Virus record (IMG/VR): IMGVR_UViG_3300033146_000291
Span: 1 to 20,748 of that record
Strand: one strand, 5' to 3'
Length of the DNA: 20,748 nucleotides
Source of the DNA: a virus
Part shown: positions 342 to 16,757 of the stretch, in pieces
Layout: each line of letters opens with the position of its first letter
How positions within the stretch are numbered: position 1 is the first letter of the stretch
Made by a program: the position numbers and the translations under genes
The notes under the pieces: generated by a model
What the model saw: the letters and a program-made list of their open reading frames with translations, nothing else
What the model was told of the DNA's origin: nothing
The model's database searches: none

Positions 342-377
342 TAGTATATGAAAGATGATAACACACAAATATGAAGT

Positions 378-781: not shown

Positions 782-785
782 AAAA

Positions 786-1256: not shown

Positions 1257-1268
1257 TAAATACACAAT

Positions 1269-1592
1269 ATGACAGAAGCAGAAGATAAAACAGCAAAGGC
1301 AGGTATATACATAGTCAGAATTAAATTAGATAGCGGTGAATATGCTGTTAAGTTAGGTTACTCATCTGATGTAACGGATAGGTTCGCTAATTCAGAACTA
1401 CAACCTATCTTCATGTACAGAAATGATGATAAAGAGCTATTAGCTAACTTCGTAGAGACAACTAGGAGAAAGCTTAAAGGATATGAGTTAGTACCATTCT
1501 ACTACTCATTTGATATGCTTAGAGTTATTGGAATAGAATTATACAATGCACTTGGTGTGGTTATGCCAGAAGCATTATACTCTAGGTTATAA
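1269..1592 (+). CDS. GIY-YIG-like (T5orf172-type) protein
   Basis: The N-terminal half resembles the T5orf172/Mug113 branch of the GIY-YIG superfamily: GIYIVRI (12-18), then YAVKLGYS (25-32), then Arg38 in the position of the catalytic arginine, and a possible metal-binding Glu63. Members of this branch often occur in phages and their biochemical role is mostly unproved. The C-terminal 40 residues are hydrophobic and match nothing I know. It follows the dUTPase after 12 bases and is followed ten bases later by a second protein with the same layout, so the two look like diverged duplicates. Nuclease activity is uncertain. Confidence 0.6.
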   Translation: MTEAEDKTAKAGIYIVRIKLDSGEYAVKLGYSSDVTDRFANSELQPIFMYRNDDKELLANFVETTRRKLKGYELVPFYYSFDMLRVIGIELYNALGVVMPEALYSRL

Positions 1593-1601
1593 AAGGAGAA
1601 C

Positions 1602-1952
1602 ATGGGTAAGCTACTGGATATAGCAAGGAAAAGAACACAAGCATCTGTCTATCTTATACATATTAAGAATAGCAGAAATGACTGCCTCAAGGTAGGGTTC
1701 ACTAGAGACTTGTCCAGTAGACTACTAATGATGCCAGATAGCTTCGTCATAACTCTATTAGACGAGGTTATAGGAACCAGATCGGATATGTATAGGTTCG
1801 AGAGGTTCATACACAGATTGAATGATGATAACAGGTATATATGGAGGGGTAGAATATTCTCTGGTTATACTGAACTATACAGACTAGATACAATAGACTT
1901 ACAAGGATTATATAATACATACTTAACTAATGGATACAACGGAGATTACTGA
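1602..1952 (+). CDS. GIY-YIG-like (T5orf172-type) protein, second copy
   Basis: The layout parallels the preceding gene: SVYLIHI (15-21) replaces GIY, LKVGFT (29-34) replaces YIG, Arg40 is in the catalytic-arginine position, and FERFIH (66-71) supplies the expected Glu67. It is 116 aa long with a tyrosine-rich C-terminus. A GGAG sequence seven bases before the ATG could be a Shine-Dalgarno site, unusual for this window. The similarity between the two neighbours is at the level of pattern rather than identity, so duplication would be old. It could act as a nuclease or as a DNA-binding regulator. Confidence 0.6.
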   Translation: MGKLLDIARKRTQASVYLIHIKNSRNDCLKVGFTRDLSSRLLMMPDSFVITLLDEVIGTRSDMYRFERFIHRLNDDNRYIWRGRIFSGYTELYRLDTIDLQGLYNTYLTNGYNGDY

Positions 1953-2181
1953 ATACAGTGAAGAGACACCAAGGCGCACAGCTTTTGATATTGAATGGGA
2001 TAATTCAGAGGCAGACGTGAAGAACGTAATGCGTACTGAGTACCCTGAGCATGTGAATAAGGTCAGAAAGTGCTTACGTGTGATGGGAATAAACAAAGTC
2101 ACTAGAGATGATAGTGTTACAGTCGCGCGATATGCTGTAAGATACGGTATAAGTATAGAGAAGCTAATGCTAATCATGTAG
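1930..2181 (+). CDS. Small acidic-to-basic protein of unknown function (83 aa)
   Basis: It starts inside the end of the preceding gene, overlapping it by 23 bases. The first 35 residues are acidic (many D/E and T) and the last 45 are basic, including EHVNKVRKCLRVMGINKV. The end, RYAVRYGISIEKLMLIM, could form a small helical or helix-turn-helix-like unit, but I cannot match a family. It is the last gene before the second bipartite promoter and so probably closes the first operon. A long overlapping frame on the opposite strand is regarded as a shadow. Confidence 0.55.
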   Translation: MDTTEITEYSEETPRRTAFDIEWDNSEADVKNVMRTEYPEHVNKVRKCLRVMGINKVTRDDSVTVARYAVRYGISIEKLMLIM

Positions 2182-2190
2182 TACTCAGCG

Positions 2191-2224
2191 TATATAGCAT
2201 AACTTACTGATGTTTACTATAATA
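2191..2224 (+). promoter_or_regulatory. Bipartite promoter, copy 2
   Basis: It carries the same elements as at 308-341: TATATAGCAT, exactly 12 bases, then TTTACTATAATA, with TATAAT at 2218-2223. The 12 bases between differ from copy 1, so the blocks are conserved while the spacer is free, as expected for a protein-contact site rather than a recent duplication. It sits in the 93-base gap between two genes. Transcription would begin near 2230 and read the membrane protein, HNH nuclease and small terminase genes. Confidence 0.65.
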
Positions 2225-2274
2225 CTTTAAAGTAAAGGAATGTAAAAAATGAATTTAAAATAAGATATACAAAC

Positions 2275-2550
2275 ATGTTATATAAGGATAGATTAATACA
2301 CGTTTATTTACTTCTATACTTAGTAATGGTAGGAATGGTAAGCTTCACAGCATTCTATTCTCCATTCATGGCAAAGAATTATACTTCTTTCATAGCTATT
2401 AACTCCGGAATACTATTCGCATCAAGCGTATATATCATAGGGTTTAAGGCTATCAAAGCTTACTTTAGTAAGATGAGGAGAGAAGCAAATTTAAGAGCCA
2501 AATATAGGAAAGAAGTAAAAAGCAGCTTAAAAAAGCAATATGGGCAATAA
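2275..2550 (+). CDS. Small membrane protein with two transmembrane segments (91 aa)
   Basis: Two hydrophobic segments (about residues 8-29 and 40-60) are followed by a strongly basic tail (FSKMRREANLRAKYRKE and onward), so a hairpin with both ends in the cytoplasm is likely. No family is recognised. It is the first gene behind promoter copy 2, and its stop codon overlaps the HNH nuclease start by 11 bases. A two-segment topology is compatible with a holin or an inner-membrane accessory, but there is no endolysin gene nearby to support that. Confidence 0.6.
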   Translation: MLYKDRLIHVYLLLYLVMVGMVSFTAFYSPFMAKNYTSFIAINSGILFASSVYIIGFKAIKAYFSKMRREANLRAKYRKEVKSSLKKQYGQ

Positions 2551-2908
2551 GTCTAAATACCCTTGGTCTAATAACAATAAGAAAGAGTTATTAGGATATA
2601 CGCCGGCATCAAGAGCTGGTTGGTATAACAAGAAGGTATGGAGAGATACAAGGTGTCATGTCCTTGCAAATGAGCCATTATGTAGACTATGTACAGCAAA
2701 AGGAAGAGTGACTCCCGCAGTTTTAGTCGATCATATTACAGCTCTAACAGGAACGACAGCAAGTGACTGGTTTCTGTTCCTAGATTTAGATAATTTGCAA
2801 CCTTTGTGTCAGAAATGCCATAGAGCGAAAACTAGGGCAGATAACAGTAAATACAGTGATGAAAATAGACTGAGAGGTCTTGAATTAATGAAAAAATTAG
2901 AAAATTAA
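2540..2908 (+). CDS. HNH endonuclease of the packaging type
   Basis: This is a compact 122-aa HNH nuclease. Visible are a zinc pair CRLC (48-51), the catalytic VDHI (63-66, His65), the asparagine in DNLQPLC (84-90), and CQKCH (90-94) followed by KT. The N-terminal half has W34RDTR, like the W-R-x-x-R element of phage HNH proteins. Phages with cos or pac packaging often carry this small HNH next to the terminase genes, and in HK97 (gp74) it stimulates the large terminase. Here it is two genes upstream of the HeH protein and three upstream of the small terminase, which fits that role better than homing. Confidence 0.88.
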   Translation: MGNKSKYPWSNNNKKELLGYTPASRAGWYNKKVWRDTRCHVLANEPLCRLCTAKGRVTPAVLVDHITALTGTTASDWFLFLDLDNLQPLCQKCHRAKTRADNSKYSDENRLRGLELMKKLEN

Positions 2909-2910
2909 TT

Positions 2911-3111
2911 ATGAAAGAGCAGATAATCAATATATTAATGTTAGCGGTTGTGGTGGTAGTACTACCTTACTTACTGCTATCATACACAGCATTAGATTTT
3001 AATCCTATTAACTGGGAACAGAGTATTAGGTTAAGCCATGTAGTGTTGACAGTGGTAGCGTTCGCAGGTTTGACTAAACTAGGCAACGACGCTAGATTAG
3101 GAGGAAGATAA
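2911..3111 (+). CDS. Small hydrophobic protein, two predicted membrane segments (66 aa)
   Basis: Residues 5-27 form one very hydrophobic segment, with valine and leucine runs, and about 40-58 form a second, ending in a short basic tail. The start follows the HNH stop after two bases. Nothing identifies a family. Size and topology would suit a small holin or pinholin, but no lytic enzyme is visible in the window, so this stays a guess. A purine-rich AGGAGGA near its 3' end might serve as ribosome site for the next gene. Confidence 0.55.
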   Translation: MKEQIINILMLAVVVVVLPYLLLSYTALDFNPINWEQSIRLSHVVLTVVAFAGLTKLGNDARLGGR

Positions 3112-3117
3112 AACATT

Positions 3118-3429
3118 ATGACTAAGAGAGAACTACAAGAAGCGTTAGAGAATTCTGGAATAGGTTTCAGTAAGAAGGCTACTAAGGATGCTTTATTAGG
3201 TTTGTATATGGAGCATATAGATAATATCCAGATGGATAATGAGATAACTGATGAAGATATCGAGATAGCTCCTGAACAAGAGGTACTGGAAGTTAAAATA
3301 AAAGGATATGAAGCCACTTACATTAGTAAGGGTAGAACGTTCAGCTTAGGTGTGTTTAAATCTGAGAAAGAAGCTACCATTGCTTTAAACAAGGCTGGTG
3401 CTTCTATAAGGAAGATTTTAATCAAATAG
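3118..3429 (+). CDS. HeH/LEM-domain protein
   Basis: The N-terminal 30 residues (T2KRELQEALENSG, then FSKKATKDALLGLY at 17-30) have the pattern of the HeH/LEM helix-extended loop-helix fold, a small nucleic-acid- or protein-binding module common in phage head-region proteins. A linker rich in D and E follows (about 33-55). The C-terminal part (about 58-103) reads like a small alpha/beta domain, with alternating hydrophobic strands and KSEKEATIALNKAG. It is followed ten bases later by the small terminase. The module suggests a DNA-binding accessory, but its function is not known. Confidence 0.65.
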   Translation: MTKRELQEALENSGIGFSKKATKDALLGLYMEHIDNIQMDNEITDEDIEIAPEQEVLEVKIKGYEATYISKGRTFSLGVFKSEKEATIALNKAGASIRKILIK

Positions 3430-3439
3430 GATATTATAT

Positions 3440-3751
3440 ATGGCTAAAGTAACAAGCACGAAGTTAGTTCAGTTCCTAAAAGATAGAGGTGTCTATGAAG
3501 ATGTAGATGATCTTATAATAGGTGAGCTACTTTACAATGTAGGTTTAGCTAAGATGGCTAAGGATGATATAAAGGATAACGGTATATTAGATGCAGATTC
3601 TAGTAAAGCTAATCCATCAGTAGTTATCTACAACAATGCAGTTAAGCTTATATTACAGATAGGAAAAAAATTAGGTATAGATCCAGCATCAAGGAGAGAG
3701 TTAAATATAGCCCTCACTACTATCGGAGATGATGGATTTGACCAAGATTAA
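3440..3751 (+). CDS. terS: Terminase small subunit, P27 family
   Basis: The small subunit recognises the packaging site on concatemeric DNA and regulates the large subunit. The C-terminal half carries the recognisable P27 signature: ANPSVVIYNNAVKLILQI (about 57-74) followed by KLGIDPASRREL (77-88). The N-terminal part includes a helix (about 8-16) and an acidic segment (19-25). At 103 aa it is at the short end for the family. It is two genes upstream of the large terminase, with one short unknown gene between. I chose the ATG at 3440, which follows a short AT-rich leader. Confidence 0.82.
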   Translation: MAKVTSTKLVQFLKDRGVYEDVDDLIIGELLYNVGLAKMAKDDIKDNGILDADSSKANPSVVIYNNAVKLILQIGKKLGIDPASRRELNIALTTIGDDGFDQD

Positions 3752-3759
3752 CATAAAGA

Positions 3760-3942
3760 ATGAAAATGAAAGAAGAGATTAGAGAGAATATGATTATACT
3801 ACCAGCAGCGTTATTAAATGACGTGGTACTATATCTATTGAAAAGACCAGCAGGTGAGGTAATGCATCTGATAACAAACATAAAAGCACTAAGTAAGGAC
3901 GTTGAGGTTAAGACCTTAGAACCTTCTAGTGATGAAGACTAA
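3760..3942 (+). CDS. Small protein of unknown function between terS and terL (60 aa)
   Basis: The core LLNDVVLYLLKRPAGEV (about 18-34), followed by a hydrophobic helix, resembles short proteins often found near phage terminase and tail genes, where a helix is followed by RPxGEV. No function is established that I can name. A second ATG lies two codons in (3766), so the start is uncertain by two residues. The end is acidic (PSSDED). It is the last gene before the intrinsic terminator at 4021. Confidence 0.6.
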   Translation: MKMKEEIRENMIILPAALLNDVVLYLLKRPAGEVMHLITNIKALSKDVEVKTLEPSSDED

Positions 3943-4020
3943 AACTTTACTCGTTTTAATAAGGATTGATTAAATATTATATAAACTGTTTTTCTTAATT
4001 AAATTTCATTTTTCATTTTC

Positions 4021-4054
4021 GGAGCCGTATCAGAGACGGTGCGGTTCCTTTTTT
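4021..4054 (+). terminator. Intrinsic terminator just upstream of the large terminase gene
   Basis: GGAGCCG (4021-4027) pairs with CGGTTCC (4042-4048), seven pairs including one G-U, followed by six T (4049-4054). A second, mutually exclusive hairpin is possible inside it (GCCGT with ACGGT, 4024-4040). The last T is only 24 bases before the terL ATG, which leaves no room for a normal promoter in between. Large terminase expression would therefore depend on read-through or antitermination. Confidence 0.75.
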
Positions 4055-4077
4055 GATACACGAATAAAACTGATTAT

Positions 4078-5268
4078 ATGAAAGAGAGTAAAGACGAGTA
4101 CGTAGATAAACATTATAAGGCAGCATTTCAATACGAGGAAGATGTATTAAGTGGTAAAATAGTAGCCTGTGAATACATACATAAAGCAATACAGAGACGA
4201 TCTGAACTACATGAGAAGTATTACTTCGATGAAAAGTCAGTTAAAAAGGTAATTAAGTTCTTTTATTACGTAAACATAACGCAGCATGGGAAACCAAGCA
4301 AGTTCGAGCCGGCACCGTGGCAGGTATGGGTAACAATGCAGATGTTTGGGTATTACAGAGATAAAGATTTAACCAAGAGGTTATTTAAAGATGTTTTGAT
4401 ATTCATATCAAGGAAGAGTGGTAAGACTAGTCTAGGAGCCATATTCGCGATATACTCCCTAATAAAAGAAGAGAGGAGTGCAGAAAGCTATGTTTTAGCA
4501 ACTACACAGAACCAAGCAAGCCAAGCCCTTAAATATGCTAAGGAAATAGTTAGAGATAGTCCTGCTTTAAAGAGGAGAATAAGGATAATGCAGTACCAGT
4601 TACAAACAAGTGATAACGGTACAGGTATATTTAAAGCCTTAACTTCCGATGCAGAGACACTTGATGGACTTAATCCTAGTTATACTATTATTGATGAGGC
4701 ACATGCCCACAAGACTAAGGACTTGACTAATATAATGAGAACTGGTATGTTAGCCCGGGAGAATCCAATGCTTCTAACAGTTAGTACTGCCGGCTTCGAT
4801 AAGACGTTACCATTCTTCAATGATGTGGAAATAGGTAAAAAGACACTAGATGGTGAGATAGACGATGATTCTACACTATACATATTATTTATGTTAGATG
4901 ATGAATCAGAGGTTGAAGATCCAGATAAATGGATTAAAGCTAATCCTAGCCTCGGTGTAACAATGAGTCTTGAGGATATGAAGATAGCCTATAAAAAGGC
5001 TTCATTAACCATAACAGACTTAAATAACTTCAAGGTTAAGAACCTTAATATATACTCTGATGCAGAGAATGTATGGATACCAGACGAAGACTATAAAGAA
5101 TGCTTCTTTGAGCCTGAGTTAGAGAAACTAAGAGGAAACAAGGCTTATTTAGGTCTTGACCTTTCTACAACTAAGGACTTATCATCTTTAGTGGCAGTAG
5201 TTGAAAACCAGGAAACTGGTAAGATAGAGGTGTTTCCAGAGTTTTACTTTCCTGACCTACTGGAATAG
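4078..5268 (+). CDS. terL: Terminase large subunit, N-terminal part (ATPase plus start of nuclease); frame broken
   Basis: TerL is the motor that drives DNA into the prohead and cuts it. The ATPase domain is complete: Walker A SRKSGKTS (111-118), Walker B IIDEAH (204-209), and the coupling motif LLTVSTAG (232-239). The adenine-binding region, with PAPWQVW (78-84), lies upstream. The RNase H-like nuclease begins at YLGLDLS, whose Asp361 would be the first metal-binding residue. The frame then stops at 5266-5268 after FPDLLE, 396 residues in. The rest of the nuclease continues in the -1 frame downstream. A typical Terminase_1/HK97-type TerL is about 550 aa, and the two pieces together give about 560. 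Sequencing error, a real mutation or unusual decoding are all open. Confidence 0.88.
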   Translation: MKESKDEYVDKHYKAAFQYEEDVLSGKIVACEYIHKAIQRRSELHEKYYFDEKSVKKVIKFFYYVNITQHGKPSKFEPAPWQVWVTMQMFGYYRDKDLTKRLFKDVLIFISRKSGKTSLGAIFAIYSLIKEERSAESYVLATTQNQASQALKYAKEIVRDSPALKRRIRIMQYQLQTSDNGTGIFKALTSDAETLDGLNPSYTIIDEAHAHKTKDLTNIMRTGMLARENPMLLTVSTAGFDKTLPFFNDVEIGKKTLDGEIDDDSTLYILFMLDDESEVEDPDKWIKANPSLGVTMSLEDMKIAYKKASLTITDLNNFKVKNLNIYSDAENVWIPDEDYKECFFEPELEKLRGNKAYLGLDLSTTKDLSSLVAVVENQETGKIEVFPEFYFPDLLE

Positions 5269-5417
5269 ACCTACAACCGTGGATTGATAACGGACATATA
5301 ATAGCACATGATAGCAAGATACTAGACTATCATAAGATATTAGATAGAATAACTAAATTCACAGAGATATTTGATGTACAAGGCATTAGTTTTGATCCTT
5401 GGAACTCAACTACTCTA

Positions 5418-5759
5418 ATGGCAGAGATAGAATCTTCATTATACATGGACTTATACGCGGCACCACAGAATGCTTCATATTTCAATGCTCCTATTAAGTA
5501 TCTTGAGAGATTAATACTAAGCAAACAAATCAACTTATCTAAGAACCCTGTTCTAAGATGGTGTTTCATGAATGTAACTATGTACTATGATGGTAACAAC
5601 AACTGTAAGATAACCAAGAACAAGTCGAAAGACAGTGTTGATGGTGCAGTAGCGTTAGCAATGGCAGTAGGACTTTACCTTAAAATTAATTGGGATTCTT
5701 TATCTATGGTACTAGATGGATTTACAGAAGACCATATTGAATTAGATAGAATAAAATGA
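5418..5759 (+). CDS. terL: Terminase large subunit, C-terminal part of the nuclease domain (continues terL in another frame)
   Basis: This frame is the remainder of TerL. The boundaries given start at its first ATG, but coding similarity extends upstream in the same frame to 5256. There it reads PTGIDLQPWIDNGHI, which corresponds to the W-x-x-x-G-x-I element of HK97-type terminases. It contains FDPWNST (Asp at 5394-5396, the second catalytic Asp, upstream of the ATG), LSKNPVLRWCFMN and SVDGAVALAMA (Asp at 5640-5642, the third). No start codon lies before the second Asp, so translation from 5418 alone could not give a working nuclease. The stop overlaps the GIY-YIG start in an ATGA arrangement. 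Confidence 0.82.
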   Translation: MAEIESSLYMDLYAAPQNASYFNAPIKYLERLILSKQINLSKNPVLRWCFMNVTMYYDGNNNCKITKNKSKDSVDGAVALAMAVGLYLKINWDSLSMVLDGFTEDHIELDRIK

Positions 5760-6430
5760 AAAAAGGAATAATATATAAAGTTACAGATATAGTAGACGAT
5801 AACGTTGTATATATTGGGTTGACCACACAAAGTTTAAAACAAAGGATCAACGGGCATAAGAAAGCTACTGTAAAGTATCATTTCGATAGTGCTATAACTA
5901 AGTACGGTATTGATAGATATAAGTTTGAAGAGATAGACAATGGATATAAGATAGTACTTGGTGCTATGGAGTCAATGTACATTGCTTTATACGATACTTA
6001 TAGAAATGGTATGAACATGACAGAAGGAGGAGATGGTATTTTTGTGCCATCAGGTGAAAGCCACCCAAAGTATGATAGTGGATTATATAATTTTTATCAT
6101 ACATCTGGAAAATATGAGTTGGAAATAACAAGGTATGAATTTAGTGAAAAGTATGGAATACAATTAAAGCTAGTACATGCAATTGTAAATGGTAAAAATA
6201 AAACAACAAAAGGTTGGGGTGTGAATAAGGATAATTTAAAATCAGTTCATACATTTTATCATAGAGATGGAAGAGTACTAGAAAATATAAGTAGGAAAGA
6301 CTTTAGAGCTATAACAGGTGAATCGGCAGATACTACTGGTAAATTAGTAGGTAAAAGGCTTAAATCACTGCACGACTGGACTATACATAAAGGTTACTTC
6401 AACAATTTGACAAAACAAATAAATAAATAA
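5756..6430 (+). CDS. GIY-YIG homing endonuclease after terL
   Basis: The GIY-YIG catalytic domain occupies about residues 1-95: GIIY (4-7), VYIGLT (18-23), Arg30 and His34, metal-binding Glu72 in AMESMYIALYDTY, and Asn87 in MNMTEGG. The C-terminal 110 residues hold two copies of a module with the pattern YH-x-x-G, then R-x-x-F, then a G-x-x-K-G-W-type end, which by analogy with IENR/NUMOD modules should bind DNA. It begins on the stop codon of terL (ATGA), so it relies on terL transcription and translation. It is homologous to the gene at 7726. Such free-standing nucleases cut phages that lack them and are copied in by repair. The target is probably in or near terL. Confidence 0.85.
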   Translation: MKKGIIYKVTDIVDDNVVYIGLTTQSLKQRINGHKKATVKYHFDSAITKYGIDRYKFEEIDNGYKIVLGAMESMYIALYDTYRNGMNMTEGGDGIFVPSGESHPKYDSGLYNFYHTSGKYELEITRYEFSEKYGIQLKLVHAIVNGKNKTTKGWGVNKDNLKSVHTFYHRDGRVLENISRKDFRAITGESADTTGKLVGKRLKSLHDWTIHKGYFNNLTKQINK

Positions 6431-6452: not shown

Positions 6453-7748
6453 ATGGGATTTAACATATTTGACTTAGGCCACGTTATGATGCATGGTGTA
6501 AAGAACATGGGAAGAACTTCACTTAAATACGATGTATATGAGTCTAGTACACCTATTGTAATGCAAGATGGCATAGGTGATCCAGTAGAGCCTAATAATA
6601 TGCTTACAGTATTTACTGCTGCTAAGATACTATCAAGTTCTATATCGCAGCTAGATTTACAGATACTTAAAGAGAGTGAAGACTATCCTGAATTTAGACA
6701 CTATTACAATCTAAGGTTCAGAATGAATGATGTACAGAACAACCAAGTATTTTGGTCTACGCTGGAATATCATAGAAGCATATACGGAAATGCTTTCGTA
6801 GATTTAAGAAAAGGAAGAAATGAAATAATCCATCCATCAATAGTAACAGACTATGACTTTAAGGGAAATGGTAAAGGTGGTTTAAGGTTTAAGATAGAAT
6901 GGTCTTTAGCTGGTGATAACATACTAGACAAGAGACATACTAGACGATCAGATGAGTGGATAAACAATAAAGACCTACTACACTTCAAAGGTATATCAGT
7001 AGACGGTGTATTCGGGTTACCTCCTGTATCAGCAGCAATGCAAGCTATGCAGATAATGGATAAAGCATCTAATACTGTAATATCATTCTACAACAACAGG
7101 GCATTAAGTCCTATGGCTTTAGAAAGTACTATTAACACAGCAGCAGGAGCCAAAGCAACACTAGAAGGAGCGCAGAGGTTCAATACCAAATATACTGGTA
7201 CTTACAATGCTGGTAAAATAATGCAACTACCTCCCAACACCAAATTAAATCCTATTGCTATACAGTTTAAGGATGCGGAATTGGTTGCTACAATGAGATT
7301 CACGAAAGAGGAGATATACACCATGTATGGAATACCTACTTTCATGTACTCAAATACAGAAACAATCCAAACAGACATAGAACAGCAGACTTTAAGCTTT
7401 AAGACCTTTACATTATCACCTATAACAAGTGTATATGAAGAAGAGATTAAGTATAAGATGCTTAATAAGGAAGATTTAATGGAAGGTATCAATATACGTA
7501 TGAACATGGATGCGTTACTTGAGGCTGATATGGCTGCTAAAGCAACAGCATTCAGAAGTTTAACCACAGCTGGAATAATCACTCCTAATGAAGCCACTAA
7601 AGAGATGGGATTCAAGGAGAGTGAAAACCCTAACATGGATAAGCATTATTTGCAAGTGCAGAATGAAGCTATAGAATCATATACTCCTGGTTGGGGACGT
7701 ATAGATGGTACACAGAATAAAGTTGATGAAGAAGGGAATAATTTATAA
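6453..7748 (+). CDS. Portal protein, HK97 family
   Basis: The portal forms the twelve-subunit ring through which DNA enters and leaves the capsid. Features of the HK97 portal family appear in order: an N-terminal segment ending in the conserved YHRSIYGNAFVDL (106-118), DLLHFKG with VDGVFGLPPVSAA in the middle third, a stretch of long helices, EEIYTMYGIPTFMYS near residue 290 (the clip and stem region), and TTAGIITPNEATKEMG near the end. At 431 aa the length is normal. The C-terminal 23 bases are shared with the start of a GIY-YIG gene, so the last residues (about NKVDEEGNNL) may have been changed by that insertion. Confidence 0.92.
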   Translation: MGFNIFDLGHVMMHGVKNMGRTSLKYDVYESSTPIVMQDGIGDPVEPNNMLTVFTAAKILSSSISQLDLQILKESEDYPEFRHYYNLRFRMNDVQNNQVFWSTLEYHRSIYGNAFVDLRKGRNEIIHPSIVTDYDFKGNGKGGLRFKIEWSLAGDNILDKRHTRRSDEWINNKDLLHFKGISVDGVFGLPPVSAAMQAMQIMDKASNTVISFYNNRALSPMALESTINTAAGAKATLEGAQRFNTKYTGTYNAGKIMQLPPNTKLNPIAIQFKDAELVATMRFTKEEIYTMYGIPTFMYSNTETIQTDIEQQTLSFKTFTLSPITSVYEEEIKYKMLNKEDLMEGINIRMNMDALLEADMAAKATAFRSLTTAGIITPNEATKEMGFKESENPNMDKHYLQVQNEAIESYTPGWGRIDGTQNKVDEEGNNL

Positions 7749-8370
7749 AGCCACATGCTTACTCAATGGCAAAAGATACTTTGGTAAGACTATAACAGGT
7801 TTAAGCAAACGCAAAAATAACCATTATGCTTCTTCATTTAATGCAAAAGATAAATCTTATAATGACCATTTTCACCGTGCAATAAGAAAACATGGAAAAG
7901 ATAATTTTACTTGGGAGATAGTAGAAGCAGATGTACCAGAAGATGAATTAAATGACCTTGAAATACAATATATAGCTGCTGCTAACACTTATAAAAGCAA
8001 TGAATATAATTCAACTGCTGGTGGAGAAGGAGGTAGTGAAATAAGGCCTTCAAGTTATGAAGTATTTACTATATATCATGAGGATGGTAGTGTAGCTACT
8101 GGAACTAGAGAACAATTAGAGTCTAGATATGGACTGCTAAGACACAGTTTAAACCATATTATTAATGGTAGTAGATACACATTAAAGGGATGGGCAGCAG
8201 ATAAGTCAAGATTCCATAAAAGGTATTCATTTGAACATGAGGATGGAAGAAGGATACTAGATGTTAGACCTGTTCAATTTGTAACAATACTAGGATATAG
8301 TAAAAATGCAGCCAATAAATTGGTGTCTGGTAAAAGAAAGACTTATAAAGGATGGAAGTTAATAAAATAA
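7726..8370 (+). CDS. GIY-YIG homing endonuclease after the portal gene
   Basis: The catalytic domain is visible: GIIY (4-7), RYFGKT (17-22, YIG replaced by YFG), Arg29, His33, Glu79 in DLEIQYIAAANTY, and N in YNSTAGGEGG. Two C-terminal modules follow (about 120-165 and 170-214), each with an H-E-D-G start and a KGW end. They resemble the modules in the gene at 5756, and both proteins begin MKKGIIYK. I chose the ATG at 7726 rather than an upstream one at 7705 because this gives the same N-terminus as the homologue. The gene overlaps the portal end by 23 bases and ends 11 bases before the protease start. Confidence 0.83.
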   Translation: MKKGIIYKATCLLNGKRYFGKTITGLSKRKNNHYASSFNAKDKSYNDHFHRAIRKHGKDNFTWEIVEADVPEDELNDLEIQYIAAANTYKSNEYNSTAGGEGGSEIRPSSYEVFTIYHEDGSVATGTREQLESRYGLLRHSLNHIINGSRYTLKGWAADKSRFHKRYSFEHEDGRRILDVRPVQFVTILGYSKNAANKLVSGKRKTYKGWKLIK

Positions 8371-9002: not shown

Positions 9003-10221
9003 ACAAGAATTGCAAGAAGTGATTAGGTCTAAAGAAACTGAGTTTGAAGGAGTTATCTCAGCAGCTAAAGAAGCTAAGAGAGAACTTACAGAAGACGAGG
9101 TAACTTTGATTGATACATTGAAGGCAGAGAGAGCTGATGTAAGCTCTCAAATCGAGTCTCTTGACGCTGAGGAAGCTAAAAGAGCATTAGAATCTAAGGA
9201 AGCTGAAAAAGAAGCATTACGTGCTGAATTGAAGGAAGAACTAGAAGCTGAAATTAAAAGACAGAAAGAAGAAAAAGAAGAGGCTACAAAACGTGACCTT
9301 GAAAATTTAAACAACAAACAAAAAAACATGAAAGAGAATAAATTATTTGAAGCTTTTAGATCTAACTTTGAGAATGGTGACAGAGGCGCAATAGTTGCAC
9401 AAAGAGATGCACTTGATGGGGATACAAGCGTAATGGGAAATGTAATACCTAATTACATAGCTGACTTAGACATTCTAGGTTACGAACCTATCTGGAAACA
9501 AATGGGAACTGATGTATTATCGGGAGCTAAAGGAACATTCACATTACCTTTCGAGGATCCAATCATAGGAGAATTAGCATTAGAGCTTGTTCCTCAGTCT
9601 GGTGACATCGTTACCCCTGATGGAATCCTTATTAAGCCTAAGAGATTTACAGTAAGAAAGACATTCACAGTTGAGACATTAAGTTCAGCTACTGATAACT
9701 TCTTACAGTCAGTTTTAGGTGACATGGTAAAAGGTTGTGATAGAGCTATCACTAAAGAAGTATATGCTAAAGCATTAGCAGTTGCTAGTGTAATAGCTGG
9801 TTCTGACATAACTAAAACTGGATTCGATGCTTTAATGGCAGGTGCAGAAGTTGAATTAGACGGTGCTTTCTTAGCAAACAGAAAGACTTTCTTCGAGGCT
9901 AAAGCTTTACCTATTGACGCTGGATCAGGAAGATTCTTAGTTGAGAGAGCTGGTAACGTAAACATCGGACAAGGTGTTGTATATGATGGTACTCCATTCT
10001 GGTATTCTAATCTTTTCGAGGATGGTGTAGACCAGAAGTACGTTGTATATGGTGACACTTCTAAGATATTCGTAGCTGACTACGGTATGGTAGAAATCAT
10101 AGTTGATAAGTATACTATGGCTGATACAGGTCAAGTTGTTATCACTGTGAACAAATTAGCAGACGTAGCGGTTAAGAACCCTATCGCTTTTGCTAAGACT
10201 GCTGACTTAGATCCTGCATAG
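8995..10221 (+). CDS. Major capsid protein, HK97 fold, with N-terminal delta domain
   Basis: Residues 1-110 form a very charged coiled coil (runs of E, K and A), the delta domain that acts as internal scaffold and is removed by the prohead protease. The HK97-fold core follows from about residue 115. It includes the N-arm (LFEAFRSNFENGD), the strand-rich E-loop region (TFTLPFEDPIIGELALELVPQSG, about 183-205), and the spine and A-domain segments (PIDAGSGRFLVERAGNVNIGQG, about 303-324). The window shows no separate scaffold gene, which fits this fusion. An internal ATG at 9328 (Met112) sits exactly at the domain border behind an A/C-rich stretch. A terminator-like hairpin follows the gene. Confidence 0.93.
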   Translation: MTKQELQEVIRSKETEFEGVISAAKEAKRELTEDEVTLIDTLKAERADVSSQIESLDAEEAKRALESKEAEKEALRAELKEELEAEIKRQKEEKEEATKRDLENLNNKQKNMKENKLFEAFRSNFENGDRGAIVAQRDALDGDTSVMGNVIPNYIADLDILGYEPIWKQMGTDVLSGAKGTFTLPFEDPIIGELALELVPQSGDIVTPDGILIKPKRFTVRKTFTVETLSSATDNFLQSVLGDMVKGCDRAITKEVYAKALAVASVIAGSDITKTGFDALMAGAEVELDGAFLANRKTFFEAKALPIDAGSGRFLVERAGNVNIGQGVVYDGTPFWYSNLFEDGVDQKYVVYGDTSKIFVADYGMVEIIVDKYTMADTGQVVITVNKLADVAVKNPIAFAKTADLDPA

Positions 10222-10237
10222 TAGACAACAATATTAT

Positions 10238-10265
10238 AGGGGATGAAACACTCCCCTTAATTTAA
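10238..10265 (+). terminator. Terminator-like hairpin after the major capsid gene
   Basis: AGGGGA (10238-10243) pairs with TCCCCT (10252-10257) around an eight-base loop, followed by TAATTTAA rather than a clean T run. It lies in the 56-base gap after the capsid gene. A partial terminator here would raise capsid mRNA over the connector genes, or the hairpin may protect the mRNA 3' end. Confidence 0.55.
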
Positions 10266-10277
10266 CCTGTTCATAAC

Positions 10278-10832
10278 ATGAGAAGATATGTAAACAAAGT
10301 TATAAAAGAAAAAGAAGGCTCGGTAGTTACTTTACAACAAGCTAAACAACAACTTAATGTTGAGGAAGACTTTGTAGATGATAATGAGCATATCTTATTT
10401 CTAATTGAAAGTGCAACAGGTGCAGCTGAAGACTATACAGGTACCGATATATCTCTTACTTTAAATACTTTAGAGTATATAGATTATAGAGGTGACGCAT
10501 TATTAATAACAGAGCATCCGTTTAGATCGGTTGTATCAATCATAGCTGTTAAGGAAGGTATTGAAATACCTGTGACAGAGTATGAGGTACAGACTAGATA
10601 TACTGAGTTTTTAATTAGATTCACGGAAACGGTTGATGCTGATAAATTAATAGTTAGGTTTGAAACTGGATATGATATAGATGAGGCTCCTTATCAGGTT
10701 GTTAATGCTATCTTAGTTAAGATAACAGACCTGTATGATATGGAGAGAACATCTTATACATCTGGAATAAACTTTAGAGATAATAAGACATTTGAACGTT
10801 TGCTTAGTGGTAATGTTGTAAGTCGCTGGTAG
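10278..10832 (+). CDS. Head-tail connector, gp6-like adaptor
   Basis: It has the pattern of the HK97 gp6/phage connector family, whose ring attaches below the portal. The N-terminal helices include TLQQAKQQLNVEEDFVDDNEHILFL (about 18-42) and the following helix SATGAAEDYTG. A strand-rich middle (LEYIDYRGDALLITEHPFRSV) and a C-terminal helical part (APYQVVNAILVKITDLYDMERTS) complete it. At 184 aa it is slightly longer than HK97 gp6. The stop is one base from the next start, so this and the following three genes form a tight connector block. Confidence 0.82.
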   Translation: MRRYVNKVIKEKEGSVVTLQQAKQQLNVEEDFVDDNEHILFLIESATGAAEDYTGTDISLTLNTLEYIDYRGDALLITEHPFRSVVSIIAVKEGIEIPVTEYEVQTRYTEFLIRFTETVDADKLIVRFETGYDIDEAPYQVVNAILVKITDLYDMERTSYTSGINFRDNKTFERLLSGNVVSRW

Positions 10833-11169: not shown

Positions 11170-11658
11170 ATGGCTAATAACGTATATATTGAGTTACTGA
11201 ACAAAAGGGAAGTAAAACGTATTTTTAGAGCATTACAGCTTACTAATGAGCGCGATAAGCGAAAGCTTAAAGCCCTTGTTAAAGCACCTATTAAAAGGAT
11301 GGAAAAAGACTCTAAAGTCAACCTTACTAAACAGAAGTCAGTGATATCAGGAAACCTACTTAATAGCTTTAGAACAACTGCTACATCAGGTAAGGATACA
11401 TATTATGCTAAGTACGAGAGTAGTAGCAAGTATGCGTATTCAATAGACCAGGGTACTAAAGATAGGTATACGTCAGGAGGTAAATGGACTGGTGCCGTAG
11501 GTAAAGCAACAACAGACTATAAGGGTAGGAACTACTCATTTAGACTAGGCTTTGCTGAAAGAGCCATAAAGAAGACATTACCTACTATAAAACCATACCT
11601 TAATAAGGGTATAGAGCGTGTAGTAGCATCTATAATAAGAAGGAACTCAAGCACATGA
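11170..11658 (+). CDS. HK97 gp10-like tail/neck protein
   Basis: Length (162 aa), position and composition agree with the HK97 gp10 family, which acts at the head-tail interface or tail terminator complex. The N-terminal half is helical and basic. The middle, GNLLNSFRTTATSGKDTYYAKYESSSKYAYSIDQGT (about 62-96), has the family's characteristic pattern: L-x-x-S-[IF] followed by Y-A-x-x-x-E-G-T-like, here with DQGT. It overlaps the next gene by four bases (ATGA). The exact role is inferred from family and context. Confidence 0.72.
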   Translation: MANNVYIELLNKREVKRIFRALQLTNERDKRKLKALVKAPIKRMEKDSKVNLTKQKSVISGNLLNSFRTTATSGKDTYYAKYESSSKYAYSIDQGTKDRYTSGGKWTGAVGKATTDYKGRNYSFRLGFAERAIKKTLPTIKPYLNKGIERVVASIIRRNSST

Positions 11659-12044
11659 TTAAAATTTTAAAAGCTGTATACAGCATATTATACAATGATA
11701 CAGATGTATCAGACATAGTGGATAATAAGATATTTCCAAACATAGTACCTGATAAAGATGCTATCGCAGAGAATATTGACTATCCACTAATAGTAACAAG
11801 AAGGGCAGAGTTGACTACTGAATACTCTAAAGATTGCGGAACTGACCAAGCGTTAGTTGAAGTGATGTGTTATTCGGTATCATACACAGAAGTGGTAGAC
11901 CTAGCAGACAAAGTAAGAAAGTCGCTAGAGTACTTTACTGGAACTGTTGATGATATACTTATATCAAGAGTAAGATTATCAGGAATTAGCGAAGACTTCA
12001 CTGACGGTATATATTACCAACAGTTGCTATTTGACATAAAATAA
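11655..12044 (+). CDS. Tail completion / tail terminator protein, gp17-like (DUF3168)
   Basis: This 129-aa protein begins IKILKAVYSILYNDTDVSDIVDNKIFPNIVPD, the opening of the DUF3168/gp17-like family, in which a helix, then I-x-x-x-K-I-[FY]-P, precedes a proline-rich turn. Strands follow, then a helix (VVDLADKVRKSLEYF) and paired C-terminal strands. Family members cap the tail tube or join the tail to the head. It is the fourth of the four connector genes and is followed directly by the major tail proteins. Confidence 0.78.
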   Translation: MIKILKAVYSILYNDTDVSDIVDNKIFPNIVPDKDAIAENIDYPLIVTRRAELTTEYSKDCGTDQALVEVMCYSVSYTEVVDLADKVRKSLEYFTGTVDDILISRVRLSGISEDFTDGIYYQQLLFDIK

Positions 12045-12072: not shown

Positions 12073-12786
12073 ATGGCTTTTACAGATAAGGTAATAGATG
12101 GTGGCGATATACTTTTAAGCGTTAATGGCTTAATTGTAGCTTGTGCTACTTCTCACTCAATAGAGCTTACTAATGCGGTTAGAGAGATCAGCTGTAAAGG
12201 TAGTGGTGATTTCACCTCTGCTGAGTATGGTAGATTTAGCTGGACTGCATCAACGGATGCTCTAATGAACTTAGGAAAGGACAGTGCTATGTATGTATCT
12301 TATACCAACCTAATGGAATTAATGTCTGAAAAGGTATTAATTAATATAGACTCGTTCTATATGGAAGGTACAGATTCAATAAGTATCAAAGGACAATGTA
12401 TAATTACATCAATCAACCAGACTGCTGGTGATAGTGAGAATGCTTCATACTCTGTTTCATTACAGGGAAGAGGTGGAATACAATTTCAGGAAGGGTTTAA
12501 ACTTAATACACCTGTATTAGACCCTCCAACAATGACTAGCTCAACAGCAAATTTAGATTGGACAGATGTTAATGACATACCTAATGAATTCGGAATAAAC
12601 TTAGAATACAGTATTGATGGAGTAGATTGGATACTTGCTAAAATACTAAGCACAGATTCAATAGCGGGTGACGTTACTGGATTACAGCCTAGTACTAAAT
12701 ACCTTTTCAGAGTTAAGGCATTAGGTGATACAAACATAGTGGACTCAAACTACAGTAATGTGGTTTCTGGAACTACCCTAGCATAA
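12073..12786 (+). CDS. Major tail protein with C-terminal Fn3/Ig-like domain
   Basis: Residues 1-139 form the tail-tube domain of the major tail protein family (MAFTDKVIDGGDILLSV, then VREISCKGSGDFTS). This copy carries an extra C-terminal domain (about 145-237) that looks like fibronectin type III: LDWTDV on the B strand, EYSIDGVDW, and TGLQPSTKYLFRVKAL as the conserved tyrosine-containing F strand, ending in NVVSGTTLA. Such domains decorate the outside of siphovirus tails and may contact cell-surface sugars. The next gene repeats the tube domain without the Fn3 part. Together they would give a mixed or alternative tube, like SPP1 gp17.1 and gp17.1*, but by gene duplication instead of frameshifting. 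Confidence 0.85.
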   Translation: MAFTDKVIDGGDILLSVNGLIVACATSHSIELTNAVREISCKGSGDFTSAEYGRFSWTASTDALMNLGKDSAMYVSYTNLMELMSEKVLINIDSFYMEGTDSISIKGQCIITSINQTAGDSENASYSVSLQGRGGIQFQEGFKLNTPVLDPPTMTSSTANLDWTDVNDIPNEFGINLEYSIDGVDWILAKILSTDSIAGDVTGLQPSTKYLFRVKALGDTNIVDSNYSNVVSGTTLA

Positions 12787-12842
12787 GTAGTTAATTAATA
12801 AGACAAAGAAAATAAATAAAGTAATAACAAAAACATAACAAT

Positions 12843-13286
12843 ATGGCTTTTTTAGATAAGGTAATTGATGGTGGTGATATTATACTAAGCGTAGAGGGTA
12901 AAATTCTTGCTTGTGCAACATCGCATTCAATTGAATTAACAAACGCTGTTAGGGAAATATCTTGTAAAGGTTCTGGTGATTTCACTAGTGCTGAATATGG
13001 AAGATTCTCATGGACAGCGTCTACTGATGCGCTAATGAACTTAGGTAAAGATCAAGCAACATATTTATCTTACACAGCATTAATGAACTTAATGTTAGCT
13101 AAGACAATAGTAACAGTAGAATCAAAATACGATCAAGACGGTGACGCAGCTAACACTTATACTGTAAGTGGTGAGGCTATCATAACTTCTATCAATCAAA
13201 CAGCAGGAGATAGTGAAAACGCTAGCTACTCTGTAAGTTTACAAGGTAGAGGAGAATTGGTTAGTACAGAGGTAACAACTCCGTAA
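12843..13286 (+). CDS. Major tail protein, second copy without Fn3 domain
   Basis: This 147-aa tube protein aligns with residues 1-139 of the preceding gene. Residues 23-70 are identical in both, and a further 25-residue stretch beginning IITSINQTAG is identical near the end. The middle (about 72-108) differs. The protein identity is not mirrored in the DNA: most codons in the identical stretches are synonymous alternatives, including serine switches between AGY and TCN. It ends after a short tail (LVSTEVTTP) just before a strong terminator, as expected for an abundantly made structural protein. Which copy forms the bulk of the tube cannot be told from sequence. Confidence 0.85.
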   Translation: MAFLDKVIDGGDIILSVEGKILACATSHSIELTNAVREISCKGSGDFTSAEYGRFSWTASTDALMNLGKDQATYLSYTALMNLMLAKTIVTVESKYDQDGDAANTYTVSGEAIITSINQTAGDSENASYSVSLQGRGELVSTEVTTP

Positions 13287-13373: not shown

Positions 13374-13649
13374 ATGATTAAGGAAACTAACATAAGAATA
13401 GAAAACGTAAATTACAAACTTAAATCTTCATCATACAGAGCAATGTTCTTGTTTGAAGAGATAACAGATAAGTCAATAGCGGAACTAACATCACTTAAAG
13501 ACCAACTAATCTATATATACTGTATACTGAAAGTATCAAATCCGATTAATTTCATATACACACTTGAAGATTTTATTGATGTACTTGAGAGTGGAGAAGG
13601 TGAAGGTATACTTGCACAGTTTGCTAAACTTACGGAAGAAAAAAAGTAA
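13374..13649 (+). CDS. Tail assembly chaperone, short form (gpG-like)
   Basis: Tail assembly chaperones coat the tape measure before the tube forms. The 91-aa protein (IKETNIRIENVNYKLKSSSYRAMFLFEEIT at the start) has the size, place and helical C-terminal half of the lambda gpG/Listeria-type family, although the sequence itself is only weakly diagnostic. I chose the ATG at 13374 rather than 13302, because the longer form would be translated from within a terminator hairpin. The gene ends in an A AAA AAG TAA sequence. A -1 slip there joins it to the next frame, exactly as for gpG-gpGT. Confidence 0.78.
   Translation: MIKETNIRIENVNYKLKSSSYRAMFLFEEITDKSIAELTSLKDQLIYIYCILKVSNPINFIYTLEDFIDVLESGEGEGILAQFAKLTEEKK
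13640..13646 (+). promoter_or_regulatory. -1 ribosomal frameshift site A AAA AAG
   Basis: The heptamer is in the correct phase (gaA AAA AAG followed at once by TAA), the same slippery sequence as in E. coli dnaX. A -1 slip continues as VKKDPDSKKGSAMSLAELY into the downstream frame without meeting a stop. A seven-pair inverted repeat (GTTCAGC 13674-13680, GCTGAAC 13691-13697) lies 27 bases further on, rather distant for a classic stimulator. The product would be the gpGT-like long chaperone, spanning 13374-13996. Confidence 0.8.
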
Positions 13650-13681: not shown

Positions 13682-13996
13682 ATGTCGCTTGCTGAACTAT
13701 ATGGATTCGTAGTTCATGATTGCAAAATAAGTCCAGCATATTTCCTAGATGAGATGTCGCCTGATGAAATAGGTTACATATCTAACTCATATATAAAGAG
13801 TCATAAAGAGAAGTGGGAAATGCTAAGGATGAGTATACATGCTACAATTGCATCTCAGTCTTCTAAACCAGTAAAAGCTACTGATGTAATGAAATTTGCT
13901 TGGGATGATGGCGATACAGCAGAGCCAATGACACTCAAAGATATTGAGGCAGCTCGCGAAAGGATAAAGAAGAAATTCAACTTACAAAATATATAA
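13682..13996 (+). CDS. Tail assembly chaperone, extension (gpT-like), reached by -1 frameshift
   Basis: This frame supplies the T half of the long chaperone, which binds the tape measure in lambda-type systems. It probably has no independent start: the frame is open upstream to the slippery site at 13640. An ATG at 13682 exists and is used here only as a boundary. Recognisable elements include YFLDEMSPDEIGYI (about 20-33) and the helical end LKDIEAARERIKKKFNLQ. Its place directly before a nuclease and the tape measure is the standard order. Confidence 0.75.
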   Translation: MSLAELYGFVVHDCKISPAYFLDEMSPDEIGYISNSYIKSHKEKWEMLRMSIHATIASQSSKPVKATDVMKFAWDDGDTAEPMTLKDIEAARERIKKKFNLQNI

Positions 13997-14008
13997 TAAA
14001 CATATAAT

Positions 14009-14422
14009 ATGGCTAAAGAAAAGTATAAACCAATAACAGGGTTTAACGGTCGTTACGAGGTATCAGATCTTGGAAATGTACGAAGTGTAGCCAGATTTAC
14101 TAGAAATGGTAAAGATTGGAGAGATGCAGTCATACTTAAATCAAGATCTTATTCCACAGGATATAGACAGCTTACTTTGAGAGATAATGACGATAAGAGA
14201 TACAGTAGGACAGTTCATAAGCTAGTCGCCGTTGAATTCGTAGATGGATACTTTTATGGTGCCGTAGTGAACCATATTGATGGTAACAAACTAAACAACT
14301 CATCTACTAACTTAGAGTGGATAACACAGAAAGAAAACATAGCACATTCAATAAAACTTGGATTGAGAGCTAAAAAATATAAACTTAATACAATAGGAGG
14401 ACATAGTTATCGCAAAATTTAA
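14009..14422 (+). CDS. NUMOD4-HNH homing endonuclease at the tape-measure start
   Basis: Residues about 8-55 are a NUMOD4 module (GFNGRYEVSDLGNVRS followed by a second strand pair). The HNH part runs VHKLVAVEF (69-77), NHIDGNKLNN (88-97, His89 and Asp91) and NLEW (101-104), ending with Asn110. This is the common free-standing homing nuclease of phages. It separates the chaperone genes from the tape measure, where normally nothing intervenes. Its last 26 bases overlap the open frame of the tape measure, so insertion most likely displaced that gene's own leader and ATG. The first codons, ATG GCT AAA, resemble what the tape measure's start should be. Confidence 0.85.
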   Translation: MAKEKYKPITGFNGRYEVSDLGNVRSVARFTRNGKDWRDAVILKSRSYSTGYRQLTLRDNDDKRYSRTVHKLVAVEFVDGYFYGAVVNHIDGNKLNNSSTNLEWITQKENIAHSIKLGLRAKKYKLNTIGGHSYRKI

Positions 14423-14468
14423 TATAGTAGCCGGCCTTAGATTAAACACAGGAGCTTTTACATCTTCA

Positions 14469-16757
14469 TTGAAAGGTGCATCCGTAGCATTGAATAACTT
14501 CTCTGCTAACTCTTCAAAAGGTATGAAGGGATTACAACTGTCTTCTGCCGCTGCTGGTATAGCAGTAATAGCCGTTGTAGCTGCACTAAGAAGCGCGTTA
14601 AACACTATGTTAGAGTTTAGCAAGGCTACATCAGAATTAAAGGCTGTTTTGGGTGGTACCAAATCAGAAATGAAGGCATTGAGCAAGCAAGCTCAAGATT
14701 TAGGTTCATCTACAGTACACACTGCCACTCAAGTAGTTAAGCTACAGGTAGCATTAGCAAGATTAGGTTTCTCAACAACTGAGATACTTGATATGACTAA
14801 AGCTATACTTGACCTAGGCACAGCGATGGGAATAAGTCTTGCAGACTCCGCTAACTTAGTAGGTGCCTCGCTTAAAGCCTTTAATAAAGATGCTAAGGAT
14901 TCAACACATTTTGCTGATGTATTAGCTAAGGCTACTACAATATCAGCATTATCATTCGATAAATTAAAAATAGCTATGCCTTATGCTGCAACTGCTGCTA
15001 ATCAAGCTGGTGTATCTTTCGAGAGAACCGCAGCCATGTTGGGAGTGCTTGCTAATAAAGGGCTTAGAGCATCGACTATGGGTACATCTCTAAGGAGGAT
15101 ATTCATAAGGCTTGCACAAAAAGGATTATCCTTTAGTGAGGCCATGACAATGATAAATGACTCTACTAATAAACTAACAACATCAACTGAATTGTTTGGT
15201 GTTACAGCTGCAAACTCAGGTGTTATACTAGCTGAATCAACTGGTGAGATAGATAAATTTGATGTGTCTTTGCAAAATGCAATAGGTACAACTAATGAAA
15301 TGGCTAGGATAATGGCTGATAACCTTTCAGGTGATATAATTAAGGTTACTAGTGCATGGCAAGGTCTTGTAATAGCTATTGATGAAGGTAACAGCGTAAT
15401 GTCTAAATCATTAAGATACTTAATGCAAGAGTTCGCTGACTTCCTTAACGTATTACGATCTTACGCTGATGAAGAGTTTGATTTCTATGATGCCGGCGCA
15501 CAACAGCAATTCGGTACTAAAGAAACTCAGACTCTATTAAAGCAAAAGCAGGATAAGATAAATAAAAGCTATACTACTGCAAATTCTGCTATCAAGGATA
15601 TGAACAAGCTCCTTGAAGAGAATAAGTTAATGCAAGAAAAGATAACTAGCTTAGAAGAGCGTAGGCTATCTAATGTAATACCAGGAATAGCAGAAGCAAG
15701 GGGTGATGAAATAGAGTCACTTAAAGTTAATATACTGACCAACAATGCTCTTATAAAGACCCATAGGGAAGCTATTATAGCTAATGATGGTAAGAGAAAG
15801 GCTATAAGAGATCTAGTTAAAGCACAAGAAGAAGCTTCAAAAGCAGCAGCTAGAAATAAGATTATAAATGAGAAGCTAGCAGAACAGAGGAAGAAGGATA
15901 ATGGCACATTTGATAAGCTAATTGATAAGTATTATTTACTATCGTTGATAAACAATAAGGCACTTCAAGATAAGATGGCTATTGTTATTTGGTATAAGAA
16001 TGAAAAGGCTGCCATTGATTCGCTTAATATATCCCTTGAAAAACATAAACTGCTGATAGAAGCCCTTGATAAAGCAAAAGGTGCTAAGGAAGACAAGCTT
16101 ATGAATTCTGATATAGATAAGCAGGTAGCATCATTCTGGGGTAAAGAGAATAAGGCAATAGGTGTAAGTACTGGGAACATAAATGCTGGTATACTACCAG
16201 AAGACACAACTAAGGAACTTAAATCACTTAATGATTATCTTAGAAAGTCAGTTAATATAACTTCACAGTTAGCATCTGCTTTCGATATTTTAGGAAACTC
16301 AATATCAGATGCAATAGAGGGGCAAGACCAAGTGTTCGCAAAGGCAACAGTTGGTGTATTACGTTCTATAAATAAGATAATTAATGCTTTATTAGCAGAG
16401 CTTATTATAGGTGTAATGACGAAAGAAGGTTCTAGTAAAGGTATTTGGGGTCTTGTTGCAGCAGCCATAGCACTACCAATAGCAATAGGTGGTATGAACG
16501 CCATGATTAATAAGAACCAAGATAAGCAGAACTTTGAATCTGGTGGAATTGTACAAGGTACTTCATTCTCAGGGGATAACATAAATGCTGGATTAAACAG
16601 TAGCGAGATGATACTTACTAGAGCACAGCAGGCCAATCTATTCGCGATGGCAAATGGAGGAGGTAATACAGGAGGACAAGTAGAGTTTGAAATACGTGGT
16701 GATAAGCTAGTTGGAGTACTTAATAATCATTCAAGAAAAATGAGTAAAATACGATAG
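14469..16757 (+). CDS. Tail tape measure protein
   Basis: It sets tail length and helps DNA ejection. From the TTG at 14469, the first standard start codon, it has 762 residues. The frame is open upstream to 14397 and encodes a plausible natural N-terminus (AKFNIVAGLRLNTGAF), with an ATC at 14409 behind AGGAGG, so the true start is probably further up. A hydrophobic segment lies at about 28-42, followed by the TP901-type core (about 50-265, LGFSTTEILDMTKAILDLGTA and QAGVSFERTAAMLGVLANKG). A long coiled coil occupies about 340-480 and a second hydrophobic segment about 658-680. The end is glycine-rich, with the usual SGGIVQG motif. At roughly 0.15 nm per residue, it would give a tail a little over 110 nm long. 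Confidence 0.93.
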   Translation: MKGASVALNNFSANSSKGMKGLQLSSAAAGIAVIAVVAALRSALNTMLEFSKATSELKAVLGGTKSEMKALSKQAQDLGSSTVHTATQVVKLQVALARLGFSTTEILDMTKAILDLGTAMGISLADSANLVGASLKAFNKDAKDSTHFADVLAKATTISALSFDKLKIAMPYAATAANQAGVSFERTAAMLGVLANKGLRASTMGTSLRRIFIRLAQKGLSFSEAMTMINDSTNKLTTSTELFGVTAANSGVILAESTGEIDKFDVSLQNAIGTTNEMARIMADNLSGDIIKVTSAWQGLVIAIDEGNSVMSKSLRYLMQEFADFLNVLRSYADEEFDFYDAGAQQQFGTKETQTLLKQKQDKINKSYTTANSAIKDMNKLLEENKLMQEKITSLEERRLSNVIPGIAEARGDEIESLKVNILTNNALIKTHREAIIANDGKRKAIRDLVKAQEEASKAAARNKIINEKLAEQRKKDNGTFDKLIDKYYLLSLINNKALQDKMAIVIWYKNEKAAIDSLNISLEKHKLLIEALDKAKGAKEDKLMNSDIDKQVASFWGKENKAIGVSTGNINAGILPEDTTKELKSLNDYLRKSVNITSQLASAFDILGNSISDAIEGQDQVFAKATVGVLRSINKIINALLAELIIGVMTKEGSSKGIWGLVAAAIALPIAIGGMNAMINKNQDKQNFESGGIVQGTSFSGDNINAGLNSSEMILTRAQQANLFAMANGGGNTGGQVEFEIRGDKLVGVLNNHSRKMSKIR

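Follow-up and report, generated by a model that had tools for sequence, protein, structure and literature searches.

Two neighbouring genes of this phage, here called A and B, encode tail-tube proteins that share an identical 73-residue core. The genes were found in the window, by which we mean the whole virus record of 20.7 kb (20,748 nucleotides) that was analysed. The unusual point is that the protein identity is kept despite saturation of the silent sites, above all when the pair is set against its relatives in other phages. Comparison of the pair-bearing genomes points to concerted evolution of the proteins, limited to those elements that are predicted to form the lattice of the tail tube. 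We consider it probable, though well short of certain, that A and B are paralogues of an old tandem duplication which are built together into one tube, and that their core is kept matched by selection with the help of occasional gene conversion.

A and B lie between the tail terminator gene on one side and the G/T chaperone and the tape measure gene on the other (Table 1), and the window and seven relatives are alike in this gene order. Each gene is complete, with a start and a stop of its own, and 56 bases separate the two; they do not originate from one gene by frameshift. Profile searches assigned both to PHROG 1407 (major tail protein) and placed both above the PF06199 (tail tube) cutoff of 23.8 bits (A, 25.7; B, 28.2). 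Elsewhere in the window, the ORF at 786-1256, upstream of the packaging genes, looks dUTPase-like by eye. The frame of the large terminase (5230-5760) is broken near 5265: ORF 4078-5268 ends within the nuclease domain, which resumes in another frame towards 5759, reflecting either a real lesion or an assembly error.

Table 1. Positions in the window of the tandem tail-tube genes, their conserved and variable parts, and the adjoining tail genes.
Feature	Position	Strand	Basis
Tail-tube gene copy A, 237 aa: tube domain and C-terminal FN3 domain	12073..12786	+	PHROG 1407 E 2.9e-16, PF06199 E 1.3e-5
Tail-tube gene copy B, 147 aa: tube domain only	12843..13286	+	PHROG 1407 E 1.6e-20, PF06199 E 2.2e-6
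Core block 1 of A (residues 23-70): predicted strand 2, loop 2-3, strand 3	12139..12282	+	48/48 residues same as B; secondary structure from model of B
Core block 1 of B	12909..13052	+	48/48 residues same as A
Core block 2 of A (residues 110-134): predicted end of strand 5, strand 6	12400..12474	+	25/25 residues same as B
Core block 2 of B (residues 113-137)	13179..13253	+	25/25 residues same as A
Variable region of A between blocks: predicted helix 1, strand 4, start of strand 5	12283..12399	+	33% identity to B in window
Variable region of B; 3-residue insertion (DGD) absent from A	13053..13178	+	comparison of A and B
FN3 domain of A, missing in B	12514..12783	+	predicted structure; homologues in L003, L020, L021 (37-48% identity)
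Spacer between A and B, 56 bases; Shine-Dalgarno not obvious	12787..12842	+	sequence
Tail terminator gene, upstream of A; syntenic in relatives	11655..12044	+	PHROG 347 E 3.7e-9; synteny
Tail assembly chaperone G; -1 slippery string AAAAAAAG at 13639, into T (13682-13996)	13374..13649	+	slippery string in sequence

In block 1 all 48 residues are identical in the two copies and 29 codons differ, all synonymously (nucleotide identity 75%), four of them by serine switches between AGY and TCN. In block 2, 17 codons differ over 25 identical residues, two by serine switches. These counts had been made by hand in the original prediction and proved exact on recount. For comparison, both copies were drawn independently with the codon usage of the other window genes. 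Over the 73 identical positions, 46 differing codons were seen against 41.2 +- 4.0 expected (P 0.15); the same draws gave 5.0 +- 1.7 serine switches (6 seen), and 13.7 nt for the longest identical run in block 1 (14 nt seen). Pairwise comparison of distant homologues of the tail-tube family gave differing codons at about 0.4-0.8 of identical residues, mostly 0.5-0.6. The silent divergence between A and B in the window is thus ordinary saturation: it matches independent codon draws, the silent sites are simply saturated, and recoding is not indicated there. A dN/dS calculation, which had been proposed as a check, was run and proved uninformative for two reasons. With NG86, dS was saturated and had no defined value for the A-B pairs of the window and L004, nor for that of L003 when the core was taken by itself; and NG86 treats a serine switch as passing through non-synonymous steps, so that it returned a spurious dN of 0.09 where the proteins are identical.

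Some dozen related contigs were recovered from IMG/VR, in which the genes keep the same order all the way from the portal or capsid gene to the tape measure gene. Additional scans of viruses based on portal, capsid and head-tail alignments contributed L020, L021 and L022 as well as distant single-copy loci. The pair is present in five contigs (the window, L003, L004, L020 and L021), of which three come from one metagenome (3300033146) and one, L021, has its B cut off by the contig end. In L003, L020 and L021 a homologue of the FN3 domain of window A is present on the first copy and missing from the second; neither copy has one in L004. The L003 orthologues adjoin each other and are 69% and 89% identical to window A and window B, respectively. 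A single copy with a different C-terminal domain occurs in L005, L006, L008 and L012. These four and L003 also have an A-run slippery string before the stop of G, at the same place as in the window. In L022 there are two diverged tail-tube genes (10197-10652 and 14130-14756) with two large genes (881 and 273 aa) between them. Two scans for relatives in bacterial genome contigs found none, annotated phages gave one distant relative only (MT835917, 32% identity, single copy), and a scan of Rfam gave no match. An HNH/NUMOD4 endonuclease gene lies between structural genes at 14009-14422 of the window, a place where L003 has no HNH gene, and two other window ORFs between structural genes (5756-6430 and 7705-8370) look GIY-YIG endonuclease-like by eye. 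Endonucleases of these kinds could stimulate local recombination.

The core residues of the two copies follow the genome rather than the copy. A-B identity within a genome was 0.95 in block 1 and 0.97 in block 2, compared with 0.74-0.83 for A-A or B-B between genomes, the close window/L003 comparison being left out of the latter figures. Core quartets outside window/L003 each held 3-12 concerted residues, with 0 orthologous and 0 crossed residues in every comparison. The silent codons of the quartets showed no concerted excess and no dominant pattern. The same was seen when we reassigned which B belongs to which genome. Over the five genomes, the true pairs had 16 mismatches at core residues compared with 46.2 +- 4.1 after shuffling, and this result held without L020 (8 vs 19.8 +- 3.0). 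The region between the blocks showed no within-genome coupling (90 vs 87.5 +- 2.6), silent codons gave 168 vs 165.1 +- 6.4, and some coupling was found in the N-terminal 22 residues (36 vs 45.7 +- 3.0). Residues particular to one lineage stand in both of its copies, namely S35, S48, A56, A120 and T128 in L020, D125 in L004, and I32 and A51 in L021. Since the split of L003 from the window, S132G has also arisen in both of its copies, the glycine being GGA in one and GGT in the other; it is one event with a short shared run nearby, may represent conversion or parallel change, and is not decisive.

The trees of the different gene parts gave corresponding results. The core tree placed L020 A and L020 B together (100/98), and a clade was rejected for the A copies (p 5e-5) as well as for the B copies (p 7e-10); on block 1 alone the B clade was rejected (p 0.005) and the A clade was not (p 0.17). 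The tree of the variable region and N-terminus grouped L004 A with L020 A (94/87) and L020 B with window/L003 B (81/84) and rejected the L020 A-B pair (p 0.03); a B clade was not recovered outright on these columns. The core and variable trees disagree, indicating that parts of the same genes carry different histories. The variable region is near residue saturation, and its signal for a single duplication is therefore modest (p 0.03). Long-lasting, strong constraint on the tube lattice, one of the two readings offered in the original prediction, is supported by these data but is incomplete as an explanation: in the five genomes the core of A is nearer to its own B than to the A of relatives, a resemblance that constraint on independently evolving copies cannot explain.

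Recombination between the copies can be recognised in one genome. The two L020 genes share 69 bp of exact identity (GDCIITSISQASPDSENATYSVS; A 5767-5835, B 6522-6590) between otherwise diverged flanks, compared with a simulated maximum of 32 bp in 2000 draws. The tract lies in the block homologous to core block 2 and, judged from its sequence, is a recent gene conversion of that block. Hence recombination between the copies appears to occur without loss of the pair, which runs counter to the purpose that recoding would serve. As to the donor, the codons of the tract point both ways: L004 B is nearer to them than L004 A (11/20 vs 5/19), whereas window A is nearer than window B. The window, L003, L004 and L021 contain no such tract, their longest runs (12-14 nt) being within chance, so that, after whatever conversion there may have been, it was selection that kept the cores of these four pairs matched while their silent sites became saturated. 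In a comparison between genomes, L003 A (3409-4620) and L021 B (4641-4841) have a 27-nt identical run, the longest A-B run of this kind, which is possibly due to chance or to exchange between phages. A further set of repeated genes was seen in L020, where positions 2-3455 contain three tandem major-capsid-like ORFs with 58-71% amino-acid identity. The first ends in a domain resembling FN3, for which PF00041 narrowly missed its cutoff (E 4.5e-5), and also contains an acidic 12-nt repeat array; the second and third have a 46-bp exact tract in common (simulated maximum 35). The layout of one FN3 copy plus plain copies is thus found in L020 for both the capsid and the tail tube.

The predicted structures suggest what the matched residues may be doing. 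The model of B (pLDDT 69.5) contains the tail-tube beta-sandwich with loop 2-3 and one helix, and had 32 PDB matches of tail-tube type at E < 0.001 (TM 0.5-0.6). The structures that it resembles include the tail tubes of the Listeria monocin (9j1k/8qhs), which is the best match, of lambda (gpV) and of SPP1 (6yeg). The C-terminal domain of A was modelled with pLDDT > 80 and matches FN3 structures, for example FN3con (4u3h, TM 0.78), and PF00041 scored below cutoff in window A and above cutoff in the L021 orthologue. In the model the core comprises strands 2 and 3 with loop 2-3, the end of strand 5 and strand 6, and the uncoupled part comprises the flanking helix, strand 4 and the start of strand 5; with a tube model of moderate confidence (pLDDT about 70) these strand limits are approximate. 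In known tail tubes the inner sheet forms a 24-strand ring barrel, and loop 2-3 is the main ring-to-ring contact in most systems (PMC8718954). By this analogy, the core of A and B would consist of the strands and the loop with which known tubes form their ring barrel and join one ring to the next (PMC8718954).

We propose a tandem duplication that is older than, at the least, the separation of the window phage from the L003 phage, and probably older than that of L004, L020 and L021 too; from the sequence comparisons we infer a single origin. Both proteins are most likely part of one tail tube, in which B would be the undecorated subunit and A the one with FN3 decoration on the outer side. If the two copies share one lattice, each lineage would keep the same core in both: the contact parts (strands 2, 3, the end of 5, 6 and loop 2-3) would have to stay matched in each lineage, and the outer helix, strand 4 and the C-terminus would be free to differ between the copies. 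The core would be kept matched by strong purifying selection, with short gene conversions contributing from time to time, and we infer that the window, too, underwent conversion in the past. During the intervals the silent sites would drift to saturation, the state in which the window is found.

Assembly of A and B into one tube is most likely by analogy with Bacillus phage SPP1, in which gp17.1 and gp17.1* form one tube in a mixed 3:1 ratio, the longer form is produced by frameshift, and the FN3 domain is dispensable for viability (PMC8718954). Both systems have, or in the window are predicted to have, two tube proteins built on one kind of tube domain, of which the longer is extended at its C-terminus by FN3. 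They differ in that SPP1 uses one gene and translational frameshift, which makes the core identical by construction, whereas the match between the two genes of the window must be maintained. The closest solved relatives of the tube domain in sequence and fold are Listeria monocin MttP (8qhs, sequence E 8e-8; Foldseek E 1e-6 to 4e-7) and lambda gpV (8k36). In these entries the tube is matched to one tube protein and no paralogous pair is indicated, unlike the window with its pair. (Near-)tandem major tail genes, one of them longer at the C-terminus, are known from Gordonia cluster DJ and Microbacterium cluster EL (PMC12859696, PMC11080557), though in Gordonia DJ the copies are 43% identical and differ in G+C (PMC12859696). 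In the Microbacterium phages Camille and Count, each with three annotated major tail genes, orthologues were 48-63% and paralogues 43-51% identical, orthologues being closer on the whole. This ordinary divergence indicates that region-limited concerted evolution is not general to duplicated tail genes. Drosophila duplicates undergoing gene conversion (PMC2588116) resemble the present family in that paralogues are closer than orthologues and homogenised tracts are short. The present case is different in concerning only the protein core, in having silent sites saturated in 4/5 genomes, and in affecting phage structural genes. In the open-licence literature we found no earlier report of concerted evolution in phage tail or capsid genes.

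The grouping of the copies by genome in the core trees could also be produced by repeated independent duplication in window/L003, L004, L020 and L021, with the core frozen by purifying selection and the outer region evolving fast, and the single-copy state is indeed common (L005, L006, L008 and L012). We regard this as unlikely, though it deserves serious consideration. The pair has the same position and order, FN3 copy first and plain copy second, in the window, L003, L020 and L021, and the FN3 domains are homologous (37-48%). The variable-region and N-terminal tree, with its A-A and B-B groupings across genomes and its rejection of the L020 pair (p 0.03), also argues against separate duplications. 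In the variable region, moreover, B-B identity is 0.53 compared with 0.41 within genomes, and the B copies of the window and L020 have a residue insertion in common.

Selection against DNA identity between neighbouring repeats, which would have driven the silent changes, was the second reading of the original prediction and seems very improbable to us. Some numbers do lean towards it. Without L020, within-genome silent mismatch exceeded that of shuffled pairs (149 vs 135.5 +- 5.4, P 0.007), as it did for the window and L003 alone (83 vs 76.5 +- 3.0, P 0.02), and the same four genomes had 158 silent mismatches against a codon-usage expectation of 143.6 (z 1.9), with a slight excess in all four. 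The core codons of the window and L003 were crossed in 8 cases and concerted in 1. However, L020 was left out post hoc, after its conversion tract had been seen, and the excess (P 0.007) is a weak post hoc hint. The five genomes together showed no silent excess over shuffled pairs or over codon usage (182 vs 182.5), and the excess in the window alone was not significant. Chance accounts for the length of the identical runs (12-14 nt, with 12.9-16.7 expected), and L020 keeps both copies despite its fresh 69-bp tract. Relatives that keep both copies with high protein and low DNA identity, which had been expected to favour recoding, were found, but they cannot discriminate since simple saturation predicts the same. 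A restricted form, in which selection between rare conversions pushes the silent sites of the two cores apart and so protects the pair from collapse, is improbable as well, if a little less so.

It is also conceivable that A and B are used separately, at different places of the tail (for example A at one end), and are matched through the same partners. The tape measure, chaperone, tail terminator and distal tail protein are single in each genome, and their interfaces would couple both cores. A boundary between A and B segments would still require matched ring-to-ring contacts, and sequence cannot tell separate use from a mixed tube; we give separate use only a slight chance. Import of one copy from a distant phage, which had been said to remove any need for recoding and which has a counterpart in Gordonia cluster DJ, where the authors infer a different history for two major tail genes of different G+C (PMC12859696), is the least probable explanation, as both copies fit the codon usage of the window (mean log frequency within 1.3 SD of simulation), their GC is equal (A 0.368, B 0.370), their cores are identical and their orthologues stand side by side in L003 (69%, 89%).

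The family illustrates that identical proteins with near-saturated silent sites require no selection for recoding. Known phages with Ig-like tail decoration obtain plain and decorated subunits from one gene by frameshift, and the identity of the tube part comes for free. The A/B phages appear to reach the same end with two genes, at the cost of having two copies whose lattice surface must stay the same. If this is true, the concerted residues would reveal which residues of the tube must match between neighbouring subunits, and the pair would be a natural system for studying how conversion and the constraint of co-assembly share the work of keeping paralogues matched.
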